DNA of 64,000 nt, taken from positions 3,202,001-3,266,000 of the forward strand of contig NZ_AP023213.1 in the NCBI RefSeq assembly GCF_014218275.1. Direction: 5' to 3'. The notes beneath the pieces were generated by a model. That model saw nothing but the letters and a program-made list of their open reading frames with translations, was not told the DNA's origin and made no database searches. The DNA comes from Citrifermentans bremense (GTDB taxonomy: Bacteria > Desulfobacterota > Desulfuromonadia > Geobacterales > Geobacteraceae). The stretch's first letter is position 1. Each line of letters starts with the position of its first letter. Shown here one piece after another: positions 753-4,991 of the stretch. Position numbers and translations under genes: made by a program.

Positions 753-1943
753 ATGAAAGATCTTCAGCAGTGGCGCGACGGCGACAGTTTCGGAGATTTG
801 CTGAAACGGCGGGGGGTGACACGGCGAGAATTTCTCACCTTCTGCGGCAAGATGGCGGCGCTCATCGGCGTCGGCGGGGTCTTCGGGGGAAGCAAGACCG
901 CATTTGCGCAGGAGCTCGCGGGGAGGCTTGAGGCGGCACGGCGCCCGAGCGTGGTCTACCTGCAGTTGCAGGAGTGCACCGGCTGCGTCGAGAGCCTGCT
1001 CCGCTCGGCGAGCACCCCGGTCGAGGAACTGGTCCTGGAACAGATCTCGCTCGACTACAACGAGCTCCTGATGGCTCCCTCGGGAGAGGCGGCCGAACAG
1101 GCGCTCGCCTCAGCGCAGACAAAGCCGCACCTCCTCTTGGTGAACGGCTCGGTGCCGCTTAAAGACGGTGGCGTCTACTGCACCATCGGCGGCCGCTCCG
1201 CGCGCGACGTATTGGAGCGTGCCGCGGCCAACGCCACAGCGGTCGTCGCCATCGGTGCCTGCGCCGAGTACGGCTGCGTCCAGGCAGCCTCCCCCAACCC
1301 CACCGGCGCGGTGGGAGTAGCGGACGTGATCAGGGACCGCCCCGTGGTGAACATCAGCGGCTGTCCCCCCATCGCCGAGACCATCAGCGCCACCCTCACC
1401 TATTTCCTCGCCTATGGCCACACCCCTCCGCTCGACGGGCTAGGGCGCCCGCTTTTCGCATACGGCCAGCGCATCCACGACAAGTGCCCGCGGCGCGCAA
1501 GCTTCGACGCAGGGCAGTTCGCCGAGCGCTTCGACGACCAGAACGCCCGCCTGGGGCACTGCCTCTACAAGCTGGGGTGCAAGGGCCCCGCCACCTTCGC
1601 CCCCTGCGCCACCATCGAATGGAACGATGGGGTGAGTTTCCCCATCAAGGCCGGACACCCCTGCCTTGGCTGCACCGAGCGCCACTTCTACGACCGCATG
1701 ACCCCGTTCTACCGGCGCCTCCCCGGCATTACCGTCCCGGGGCTCGGCGTGGAGGCCACCGCCAACACCATCGGCGTTGCGGCCGTCGCAGCCTCGGTCG
1801 CCGCGGTCGCGGTCCACTCCGCGGCAACCGTGATAGCCAAGCACCGGGCCCGCCGGGCCGAACCCGAAAGCCTGCCGCTGGCGGTACTGGGGGACCGGGA
1901 AGAACCAGGCGTTAAGCAGAAGGAAAAGGAGAAGGATTCCTAA
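753..1943 (+). CDS. hyaA: [NiFe]-hydrogenase small subunit, Tat-exported
   Basis: The small subunit carries the FeS relay that takes electrons from the NiFe site towards the membrane. A twin-arginine signal (RRGVTRREFLTF) starts near residue 19. Cluster cysteines follow: ECTGC (proximal), GACAEYGC and GCPP, then HCLYKLGC and HPCLGC near the C-terminus. The proximal motif has Gly where oxygen-tolerant enzymes such as E. coli Hyd-1 (ECTCC) carry an extra Cys, so a standard oxygen-sensitive type is inferred. An alanine/valine-rich hydrophobic segment near residues 335-355 is the expected membrane anchor. Length 396 aa is normal. It is first in a three-gene operon; the large subunit follows after 163 bases containing a palindromic repeat. 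Confidence 0.93.
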   Translation: MKDLQQWRDGDSFGDLLKRRGVTRREFLTFCGKMAALIGVGGVFGGSKTAFAQELAGRLEAARRPSVVYLQLQECTGCVESLLRSASTPVEELVLEQISLDYNELLMAPSGEAAEQALASAQTKPHLLLVNGSVPLKDGGVYCTIGGRSARDVLERAAANATAVVAIGACAEYGCVQAASPNPTGAVGVADVIRDRPVVNISGCPPIAETISATLTYFLAYGHTPPLDGLGRPLFAYGQRIHDKCPRRASFDAGQFAERFDDQNARLGHCLYKLGCKGPATFAPCATIEWNDGVSFPIKAGHPCLGCTERHFYDRMTPFYRRLPGITVPGLGVEATANTIGVAAVAASVAAVAVHSAATVIAKHRARRAEPESLPLAVLGDREEPGVKQKEKEKDS

Positions 1944-1945
1944 GC

Positions 1946-1983
1946 AAATCCCCCCTGTCCCCCCTTCGCAAAGGGGGGACAGT
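1946..1983. repeat. dispersed intergenic palindrome, family A copy 1
   Basis: CTGTCCCCCC-TTCGCAAA-GGGGGGACAG forms a strong hairpin between the two hydrogenase subunit genes. Close relatives sit at 16521-16562 and 32697-32737, each with the same CCCCCCTTTGCG/AAGGGG core, so this is a repeated REP-like element and not a unique site. It may also modulate readthrough within the operon. Confidence 0.7.
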
Positions 1984-2106
1984 CAGGGCTGGCGCAGCGC
2001 TTCGTGTGTGTCATTCCCCGGAATTCCCGGATGAACCTCAGCAAAGCGTGGCAGGAAAGGATTTTCAGCTGGCGGCAACAACGGAACCACGGCAAGGAGA
2101 AAACCG

Positions 2107-3822
2107 ATGGCAACAGAGCGAATCGTCATTGACCCGATAACCAGGATCGAGGGGCACCTGAGGATAGAGCTTGAGGCCGCGGATGGCAGGATCAGCAACG
2201 CCTGGGCCTGCGCCACCCAGTTTCGCGGCATCGAAAAGATCCTCGAAGGGCGGGACCCGCGCGACGCCTGGGCCTTCGCGCAGCGCATCTGCGGCGTCTG
2301 CACTGGCGTCCACGCCATCGCCTCGATCAGGGCGGTCGAGGACGCCATCAAATGCCGTATTCCCGAGTCGGCCGAACTGATCCGGAACCTGGTCTCGGGG
2401 ATGGCGACCCTGCAGGACCACGTGATGCACTTCTACCACCTGCACGCGCTGGACTGGGTGGACGTGATGAGCGCCCTGTCCGCCGATCCCGCCGCAACCT
2501 CACGCCTGGCCGCAACCATCTCCCCCTGGCCCAACAACTCCGCCACCTGGTTCAAGGAGGTGCAGCAGCGGGTCGCGACTTCGGCCAAAGGCGGGCTCGG
2601 GATCTTCGCTTCCGGCTACTGGGGGCACCCGGCCTACCGGCTCCCTCCCGAGGCGAACCTGATGGCGGTCGCCCACTACCTGGAGGCGCTCAAGTGGCAG
2701 CGCGAGATCATCCAGCTCCACACAATCTTCGCGGGGAAAAATCCGCATCCCAACTACCTGGTGGGGGGGATGGCGACCTCGATAAATCTGGACAATCAGC
2801 TCACCATCAACAAGGTGCGGCTGGACCAGTTGGGGGAGCTGATCAGGGAGGCGCGCCGCTTCGTGGACGAGGTGTACTACCCTGACGTAATGGCCATCGC
2901 CGGCTTCTACCCCGAATACGCCTCCATCGGCGTTTCCTCCCCCACCATGATGGCGGTCGGGGAGAGCGCCTTTTCCTGTTCCGGCACGCCGGCGGGGAAG
3001 CCGGTCGCAGCCGGGCTCCTCATGGACGGCGATTACCGCACGCCACGCCCCTTCAATCCGAGGATGGTAGCCGAATTCGTCTCCTCAGCCTGGTACCTCT
3101 ACCCCGAGGGGGACCGGCAGGGGCTGCACCCGTGGCAGGGAAGGACGGACCCGAACTACACTGGTCCGAAGCCCCCCTACCGTCAGCTGTCCGACCAGGA
3201 GAAGTACACCTGGTGCAAGGCGCCCCGCTACGACGGACGCCCCGTGCAGGTCGGCCCCAACGCGAGGATCATGCTGGCCTATGCGCAGGGGCACCCTGAA
3301 ACCGTACAGCTGGCGAACCGCGACCTGGGTCAGCTCAAAGCCGGGGTGGAGGCGCTCAATTCCACGCTAGGGCGCACCTACTGCCGGGCGCTCGAATCGG
3401 TCATCCTCGCCAAACGGATGGAAGAGTGGTTCGCCGCCCTGAATGAGCGGGTCCGGTCGGGTGACGTCTCCACATTCAACGCGGACTTCTGGGAGCCGGA
3501 GAGCTGGCCCAAGCAGGCGCAGGGGATGGGATACCTGGAGGCCGCGCGCGGGACGCTGTCGCACTGGGTGGAGATAGAGAACGGCCGCATCTCCCGCTAC
3601 CAGTGCGTGGTGCCGAGCACCTGGAACAGCTCGGGACGCGACCCCAACGGCCTGATGGGACCTTACGAACAGGCGCTGGCCGGAGACAAGAAGCATCCGC
3701 TGGTAGACCCCAAGCGCCCGGTCGAGGTGTTGCGGACCATACACTCCTTTGACCCGTGCCTGTCCTGCGCCGTGCACATGCTGCTACCGGACGGTTCGGG
3801 GCTCGAGGTGAAAGTGCGATGA
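2107..3822 (+). CDS. hyaB: [NiFe]-hydrogenase large subunit
   Basis: This 571-aa catalytic subunit binds the NiFe(CN)2CO site. The N-terminal L1 motif RICGVCTGVHA starts near residue 60, and the C-terminal L2 motif is DPCLSCAVHM, so all four nickel-ligand cysteines are present. About 14 residues follow the terminal His. This is the extension normally removed by a maturation endopeptidase after nickel insertion; no such protease (HyaD type) is encoded nearby, so it must be elsewhere. A good AAGGAG-type site precedes the ATG. The stop overlaps the next start (ATGA), which implies translational coupling to the cytochrome b gene. Confidence 0.95.
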   Translation: MATERIVIDPITRIEGHLRIELEAADGRISNAWACATQFRGIEKILEGRDPRDAWAFAQRICGVCTGVHAIASIRAVEDAIKCRIPESAELIRNLVSGMATLQDHVMHFYHLHALDWVDVMSALSADPAATSRLAATISPWPNNSATWFKEVQQRVATSAKGGLGIFASGYWGHPAYRLPPEANLMAVAHYLEALKWQREIIQLHTIFAGKNPHPNYLVGGMATSINLDNQLTINKVRLDQLGELIREARRFVDEVYYPDVMAIAGFYPEYASIGVSSPTMMAVGESAFSCSGTPAGKPVAAGLLMDGDYRTPRPFNPRMVAEFVSSAWYLYPEGDRQGLHPWQGRTDPNYTGPKPPYRQLSDQEKYTWCKAPRYDGRPVQVGPNARIMLAYAQGHPETVQLANRDLGQLKAGVEALNSTLGRTYCRALESVILAKRMEEWFAALNERVRSGDVSTFNADFWEPESWPKQAQGMGYLEAARGTLSHWVEIENGRISRYQCVVPSTWNSSGRDPNGLMGPYEQALAGDKKHPLVDPKRPVEVLRTIHSFDPCLSCAVHMLLPDGSGLEVKVR

Positions 3823-4991
3823 AGATCTTCGACATCCCCGAGGACGAACTCCGCATCGAGCTGGCTGATCCGGCTCCCTTCGGCGGCGGCAAAAGGAGCG
3901 AGCTGATGCTTCTGGCGGCGTTAGGCGCGCCGGTCGGCACCCGGGACCCAGTGGACCTGGCTCTTCTGAGCGCCGCCTCCCGTAAGGACGACCTGCGGCA
4001 CTTCGAGCAGACCGCTTTCACGCCGCTGGAGCCGCAGCTCGCGCGAAGCATCGCGCGGGTGCGACGGGTGGGAGAGAAAGAGGAAGAGCTGATCGCCCGC
4101 GGCGAGGTCGACGCCATCCTCTATCTTTGCCGCGCCGACGAGGCGACCCGCTTCCGGGCGGAGTTGCAGGCCGAGATGAGGATGACCCGCGGCTACCGGG
4201 CGCTCGGCATCGCCAAGGCCAAGCCGGGTCCGGAGGGGGAGGAAAACTGGACCTTCATGGGGTACATTCCGATCCGGGCCACGCGGCATAAGAGTACCCG
4301 CAGCGAAGAGCCCGCGGACTTCAACTACGTCACCGTCTGGGACTGGCAGCTGCGCGTCCTGCACTGGCTTTCGGTCTTCCTGATCCTGGTGCTGTCGCTG
4401 ACCGGCCTTTTGATGGGGAGCAGCCGTTTCATCTACGGCGTATCGCAAGGGTACTCCAACTACCTGAGCTGGCTCAGGCTCACCCACTTCGTCGCGGGAT
4501 GGTTTCTTCTCTGCGCCGCCATCCTGCGCATAGCCGGGCTCTTTCTCGCCTCCAATCGCTTCCAGCGCTGGTACGCCCTCTTCCCGGTGAAAAAGCGCGA
4601 CCTGAACAACCTGGTCCAGGTAGCAAAGAACTACCTCTTCTGCCGTTTCGAGCGCCCCCCCCACTACATCGGGCACAACCCGTTGCAGCAGATCGCCTAC
4701 ACCGCCATCTTCGGCGTCGGCCTGGCCGCCCTTTTCACCGGCTTCGCCCTCTACGCCCTGTACGCACCGGACCATTGGCTTTTGCGTTACTTCGTCTGGT
4801 TCGATGACCTGATCGGAGTACAGTACCTGCGCCTTGTCCACCAGCTGATCATGTGGATATTCCTCGCCTTCATCCCGATCCACGTCTATCTCTCCATCCG
4901 CGCCGATACCGTGGAGCGCGAGGGGGCCCTTTCCTCCATCGTCAGCGGCGGCCGCTGGTGTCGGAAAGGGACCAAGTTCGAGGACGCCTAG
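3819..4991 (+). CDS. hyaC: hydrogenase b-type cytochrome with N-terminal P-type-ATPase N-domain-like extension
   Basis: The start is the ATG overlapping the hyaB stop (ATGA); an in-frame start at 3756 would lie inside hyaB and is rejected. The product is 390 aa. Residues about 170-385 are a classic HyaC cytochrome b with four membrane segments and histidines at VLHWLS, LTHFV and the paired LVHQ...IHVYL, which ligate two hemes and pass electrons to quinone. Residues about 20-160 do not belong to HyaC. They resemble, in order, landmarks of a P-type (H+-ATPase class) nucleotide-binding domain: RDPVDLALL, FTPLEP, a degenerate ARGEVDAIL where KGAPEQIL is usual, GYRALGIAKA and NWTFMGYIPI. No DKTGT phosphorylation motif exists. 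HyaC proteins are usually about 230 aa. Confidence 0.88.
   Translation: MKIFDIPEDELRIELADPAPFGGGKRSELMLLAALGAPVGTRDPVDLALLSAASRKDDLRHFEQTAFTPLEPQLARSIARVRRVGEKEEELIARGEVDAILYLCRADEATRFRAELQAEMRMTRGYRALGIAKAKPGPEGEENWTFMGYIPIRATRHKSTRSEEPADFNYVTVWDWQLRVLHWLSVFLILVLSLTGLLMGSSRFIYGVSQGYSNYLSWLRLTHFVAGWFLLCAAILRIAGLFLASNRFQRWYALFPVKKRDLNNLVQVAKNYLFCRFERPPHYIGHNPLQQIAYTAIFGVGLAALFTGFALYALYAPDHWLLRYFVWFDDLIGVQYLRLVHQLIMWIFLAFIPIHVYLSIRADTVEREGALSSIVSGGRWCRKGTKFEDA

Follow-up and report, generated by a model that had tools for sequence, protein, structure and literature searches.

Why should the cytochrome b subunit of a [NiFe] hydrogenase carry a domain resembling the nucleotide-binding (N) domain of a P-type ATPase, and could that domain still respond to a nucleotide? 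The question is raised by the hyaC gene of the window, the whole stretch of 64,000 nucleotides analyzed here. The initial annotation had read the product of this gene as an unusually long HyaC, in which an N-domain deprived of the phosphorylation motif DKTGT is fused to an intact cytochrome b, and had linked it to ATP binding.

The hyaABC operon and the two domains of HyaC

The hyaC gene is the third of a compact hyaA-hyaB-hyaC operon, and its ATG at 3819 overlaps the stop codon of hyaB at 3820-3822 (Table 1). HyaA and HyaB are ordinary [NiFe] hydrogenase subunits. The top solved match of HyaA was the small chain of Hydrogenase-1 (6g94_S), and the second-ranked PDB matches of HyaB were also Hydrogenase-1 chains (large chain 3uqy_L, E 2e-174). 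By eye, HyaA presents a twin-arginine (Tat) signal and a C-terminal anchor. The HyaAB subunits of such hydrogenases are exported by the Tat route, and the HyaC cytochrome b passes electrons from periplasmic HyaAB to the quinone pool. No HyaD-type maturation protease was seen by eye among the listed frames adjoining 753-4991. When aligned with E. coli Hyd-1, HyaA has Gly in place of Cys19 (ECTGC) and keeps Cys at the position of Cys120, one half of the pair of additional cysteines associated with oxygen tolerance.

Table 1. Coordinates of the hyaABC genes and of the domains and pocket motifs of HyaC in the window.
Feature	Position	Strand	Description	Evidence
hyaA	753..1943	+	NiFe hydrogenase small subunit, 396 aa	TIGR00391 E 2e-123; Hydrogenase-1 small chain 6g94_S E 5.7e-98
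hyaB	2107..3822	+	NiFe hydrogenase large subunit, 571 aa	PDB 3myr_B E 1.3e-205
hyaC	3819..4991	+	390 aa; P-type ATPase N-domain and cytochrome b fusion	
N-domain	3852..4283	+	Residues 12-155, bounded by the outermost strands of the predicted model	TIGR01647 E 3.1e-13 and predicted fold
D43-P-V-D46	3945..3956	+	Putative counterpart of AHA2 Asp372/Asp375	
F67-T-P-L70-E-P	4017..4034	+	P3A FxPFDP motif; adenine-stacking Phe lost at residue 70	
R94-G95	4098..4103	+	Replaces Lys-Gly of KGAP	
R127	4197..4199	+	Counterpart of SERCA Arg560	
Linker	4284..4334	+	Residues 156-172	Low model confidence; pLDDT <50 at residues 158-174
Cytochrome b domain	4335..4961	+	Residues 173-381, four membrane helices	PF01292 E 1.3e-25; 4gd3_A HyaC E 3.9e-22

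The unusual length of HyaC was borne out, as unfused HyaC frames in relatives are mostly of 220-290 aa and the Hydrogenase-1 HyaC chain in the PDB has 235 aa. In the cytochrome b part, PF01292 (Ni_hydr_CYTB) covers residues 173-377 with 90.7 bits against a curated cut-off of 30.1, while DUF4405 scored under its cut-off and TIGR02125 reached 115.9 bits, its equivalog cut-off being 121.5. H182 is present in all 15 fused sequences, and H223, H286, H341 and H355 in each of the 14 rows extending that far; this set presumably includes the heme ligands. The C-terminal tail (4944-4973) reads SGGRWCR[KR]GT, with a conserved Cys, in every one of the 14 rows long enough to include it.

Homology of the front domain to the P3A N-domain is practically certain. 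Residues 22-153 matched TIGR01647 (P3A H+-ATPase) with 48.8 bits, the match being confined to positions 311-440 of the 755 of the model, and all 15 fused homologues scanned matched the same model. A complete P3A pump of the same genome, an 870-aa frame with DKTGT, aligned with residues 12-162 of the fusion at 32% identity (E 1.9e-14). In a phmmer search of PDB sequences, AHA2 (5ksd) ranked first (E 0.0043) and Plasma Membrane ATPase (1mhs) second (E 0.057), both matches being weak alone; the Pfam scan of residues 1-167 gave no match. The predicted fold of the front domain is the N-domain fold, closest to that of P3A pumps. In the full-length model (pTM 0.41), the way in which the two domains meet was left undefined.

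The motifs quoted in the initial annotation as N-domain landmarks were all found in the stated order: RDPVDLALL (residues 42-50), FTPLEP (67-72), ARGEVDAIL (93-101), GYRALGIAKA (125-134) and NWTFMGYIPI (143-152). The absence of DKTGT was confirmed in the 390-aa sequence, which likewise has none of the phosphorylation (P), actuator (A) and pump membrane (M) domains. In an alignment that included 19 complete P3A pumps, the likeness starts at LTLGDP, about ten residues past the Asp of DKTGT, and stops at the DPPR hinge, which precedes the remaining half of the phosphorylation domain; the D-P-P columns of the hinge are A-T-R in the fused proteins. All P3A counts refer to 19 of 20 pumps, the second P-type match of G000 (P_L003) being excluded as it resembles another P-type class. 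The front domain is therefore the whole N-domain insert of a P3A pump, with the surrounding phosphorylation domain left behind. In AHA2, both the Asp of DKTGT and the ligands of the gamma-phosphate lie in the P domain (PMC5387105). Since the phosphorylation domain is missing, HyaC can carry out neither P-type ATP hydrolysis nor pumping.

The side of the membrane on which the N-domain lies was approached by counting Lys and Arg in 14 sequences, with helix ends set by hand from a low-confidence model and the partial L042 excluded. The means were 4.6 before helix 1, 6.5 in the loop between helices 2 and 3 and 5.8 in the C-terminal tail, compared with only 0.9 and 0.8 in the loops 1-2 and 3-4. By the positive-inside rule, this asymmetry indicates that both termini are cytoplasmic, and the N-domain would therefore be located where ATP and ADP are.

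The putative nucleotide pocket and a proposed role of the N-domain

Asp372 and Asp375 of AHA2 hold the adenine, Asp372 also binds Mg and Ser457 is at the ribose (PMC5387105); in SERCA, the nucleotide is anchored by Phe487 and Arg560 (PMC3203174), and a conserved Lys belongs to the P-type site, although it is missing in P1B and P6 (PMC10654040). The AHA2 Asp pair was placed on D43 and D46 through the phmmer alignment, adding 11 to the chain number by our own reckoning. Both residues are present in all 15 fused sequences, and in 19/19 and 18/19 of the P3A pumps, respectively. Position 127 is Arg in every P3A pump, and Arg (14/15) or Lys (1/15) in the fused proteins.

Other parts of the pocket have changed. 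The Phe of FxPFDP, taken as the counterpart of SERCA Phe487 from a by-eye alignment, is found in 19/19 P3A pumps, and the equivalent residue 70 of the fused proteins is Leu (10/15), Pro (4/15) or His (1/15). The Lys of KGAP, also in 19/19 pumps, is replaced by Arg in the 15 fused sequences; G95 is kept in all of them, and the loop is rewritten as RG[EDNG][VL]. A second Lys (residue 75) is lost in 12 of the 15, with Arg in three of these 12. The interpretation in the initial annotation was partly borne out. The front domain conforms to a P3A-type N-domain in homology, predicted fold and the Asp pair; the KGAP Lys and the adenine-stacking Phe are replaced.

Taken jointly, nine pocket positions, which were listed from the papers and the P3A motifs only after the alignment columns were known, are no more conserved than random residue sets (fraction as low, 0.207). 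The five polar positions alone gave 0.0037, for a subset picked because it is conserved. Even in five outer loci, where N-domain identity to the window drops to 44-51%, the Asp pair, Arg127 and the basic character of residue 94 persist. Taken as a whole, the fused pocket is remodelled: it is not simply an ATP site, nor has it simply decayed.

Several residues are invariant in the fused N-domain (3819-4283) and rare or absent in the 19 P3A pumps: H61, R80, R82, E89, A93, Y102 and E142. Position 82 is Arg in only 3/19 pumps, position 80 is usually Thr or Glu there, and both arginines sit in the strand 76-83 of the model. These invariant residues may belong to a newly formed contact surface, facing either the cytochrome or a partner.

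The reading favoured here is a weak nucleotide sensor. HyaC is a two-domain protein formed by a membrane cytochrome b and, ahead of it, a presumably cytoplasmic N-domain excised from a P3A proton pump, which would act as a non-catalytic ligand-binding module. An adenine nucleotide would be bound weakly through the Asp pair D43/D46, Arg94 and Arg127, and its occupancy would alter how the N-domain is positioned relative to the cytochrome surface on the cytoplasmic side. This shift would raise or lower H2-driven quinone reduction according to the ATP/ADP state of the cell, so that the energy state could adjust the flow of electrons from H2. The fusion, its homology, predicted fold, conservation and operon and a partial pocket are established, whereas we infer the cytoplasmic location, the nucleotide binding and the control of electron flow. 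When isolated, pump N-domains have only a weak affinity for ATP, around millimolar, in the range of cellular ATP, and a weak nucleotide sensor is therefore preferred over a ligand-free scaffold or a sensor of another ligand. It is held tentatively, at slightly less than an even chance. The homology and predicted fold, the excision of the domain as a whole, its conservation in three families, the purifying selection, the retained pocket residues and the probable cytoplasmic side favour it. The loss of the stacking Phe and of Lys75, the rewritten KGAP loop and the pocket score of the nine positions count against it. The stronger version, in which the N-domain has become an energy-charge sensor and cytoplasmic ATP or ADP directly gates quinone reduction by the H2-oxidizing complex, is possible but rather more doubtful.

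The N-domain could also have kept its fold and lost nucleotide binding, serving as a cytoplasmic scaffold that holds HyaC dimers or docks a partner protein. We consider this quite possible, although short of an even chance. The losses at residues 70 and 75 and the ordinary conservation of the whole pocket agree with a scaffold, and H61, R80, E89 and Y102, seldom or never found in the P3A pumps, resemble a new interface. However, the retention of the Asp pair, Arg127 and the basic residue 94 in the outer loci counts against it, and the neighbourhood offers no partner. The hyaABC flanks are common within the genus of the window and, by sequence look, we take them to be a PilY1-like protein upstream and a small YtxH-like protein, an AAA+ ATPase and a VWA-like protein downstream. 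Between families, only hyaA, hyaB and hyaC are common (blastp E <= 1e-15; groups of at least three loci), and no partner gene for the N-domain was found in this comparison, in which several of the stretches are short.

Less probably, the pocket has been adapted to a new ligand, such as a different nucleotide or a phosphate-bearing cofactor, which would be sensed instead of ATP. The replacements are fixed rather than drifting (Lys to Arg in all fused sequences, the KGAP loop turned into RG[EDNG][VL], the invariant Arg80 and Arg82), in agreement with such a change. Against it, the neighbourhood points to no candidate, and a basic pocket suits ATP too; we regard this alternative as unlikely.

Distribution, descent and selection

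The fusion was detected in 20 of the 277 genomes of the class (E <= 1e-18): 12 of the 19 examined in the genus of the window, and two and six in a further two families within the order. The frame is open over at least 394 aa in 19 of the 20, and over 273 aa in the remaining one (G217). A scan of named genomes with two narrow peptide patterns, which sampled other phyla only thinly, gave 48 stretches and 14 relatives, namely Citrifermentans bremense, five Geomonas and eight metagenome-assembled bins labelled Geobacter (five), Desulfovibrio, Desulfuromonadaceae and Deltaproteobacteria; these 14 loci overlap with the 20 class genomes.

Identity to the window over HyaC ranges from 55 to 95% among the 14 relatives (one partial), the closest named one being the Citrifermentans bremense locus at 95%. 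The fusion is a single open frame in a set of 13 relatives and also in 13 of the 14 loci, the 14th (L042) being cut by the end of its contig. The hyaB gene lies directly 5' of the fused hyaC in 14/14 loci, and hyaA is present in 13/14 (L042 partial; the contig of L047 starts within hyaB). In the alignments of the fused proteins, the start and the joint are in register.

In a tree built from 15 fused and 14 unfused cytochrome domains, a long branch with 100/100 support sets the fused ones apart, and a single origin is therefore enough for these rows. L042, the unfused L021 and L025 (each with a stop inside its match) and unfused matches without a locus were left out, so that 14 of the 16 unfused loci were used. 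An unfused HyaC-like match also occurs in 11 of 14 genomes with the fusion, the exceptions being G000, G006 and G014. In G000, the Pfam scan gave one further cytochrome of the HyaC family above the cut-off, at 806463-807020. G040 encodes both a fused HyaC (L017, G040:C1:2442962-2444107) and an ordinary one (G040:C1:1271489-1272166), each right after its own hyaB.

For 13 non-independent pairs of the genus, dN/dS (Nei-Gojobori count with Jukes-Cantor correction) was 0.08-0.23 for the N-domain, the ratio being uncertain in three pairs with N-domain dS >0.7, and 0.02-0.13 for the cytochrome. The N-domain is under purifying selection and clearly constrained. Its evolution outpaced that of the cytochrome in 12 of the 13 pairs, which was also counted against a nucleotide sensor, as was the undefined contact between the domains in the model. 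Finally, a pump-gene fragment that ran into hyaC by accident and is carried without a role would fit the restriction of the fusion to part of one order in the class sample, but it is highly improbable because it is contradicted by the open frame in three families and by dN/dS far below 1, and the identities among relatives and the aligned start and joint also speak against it.

The fusion was also searched for elsewhere. In viral contigs, 28 stretches fitted the pattern and none was a relative; among 72,556 plasmid records, five matched, all annotated as plasma-membrane proton-efflux P-type ATPases, with no fusion. A search for N-domains outside complete pumps, covering 395 genomes of the phylum, gave matches in 24 (E <= 1e-15). 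G000 and G040 carry the fusion; the other 22 have open frames of at least 654 aa, with DKTGT in all 18 that were made into loci. No stand-alone N-domain appeared at E <= 1e-15 in these 395 genomes, with at most nine candidates scored per genome, so that weaker ones may be missed. In the open-licence literature, no report of a HyaC and P3A N-domain fusion was found by title or opening of the abstract, although one may exist in subscription papers, preprints or supplements; the main text of PMC2825233 contains neither 'hya' nor 'P-type'.

Comparison with known systems

The fusion is best classed as a variant of the HyaABC hydrogenase and, so far as sequence can tell, is neither a pump nor a P-type ATPase in function. 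To our knowledge, the N-domain is known only as a module of a complete P-type pump; here, it has been transferred by itself to the hydrogenase subunit that carries electrons and has been retained in three bacterial families. If adenine nucleotides bind, respiration would be subject to an intrinsic feedback by the energy state, exerted where electrons are handed to the quinone pool. If they do not, the fusion would illustrate what an N-domain can become once free of catalysis.

Compared with the P3A N-domains of AHA2, Pma1 and the bacterial TIGR01647 pumps, the fused domain is alike in sequence family, predicted fold and motif order, and shares the adenine/Mg Asp pair and the Arg of the GxRxLGVA motif. 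In contrast to these pumps, it is without DKTGT and the phosphorylation, actuator and pump membrane domains, lacks the stacking Phe, has Arg for the KGAP Lys and sits on a cytochrome. With the HyaC of [NiFe] hydrogenase 1 (PDB 4gd3, 6g94), it has in common the four-helix cytochrome b with its conserved His residues and the gene position right after hyaA and hyaB. It differs from that of 4gd3 by about 160 extra residues at the front, residue 13 of 4gd3_A aligning with residue 173 of the fusion. The solved separate N-domains of MgtA (3gwi) and HMA8 (5lbk) were excised from complete pumps in the laboratory, whereas the HyaC fusion presents a natural pump-free N-domain.
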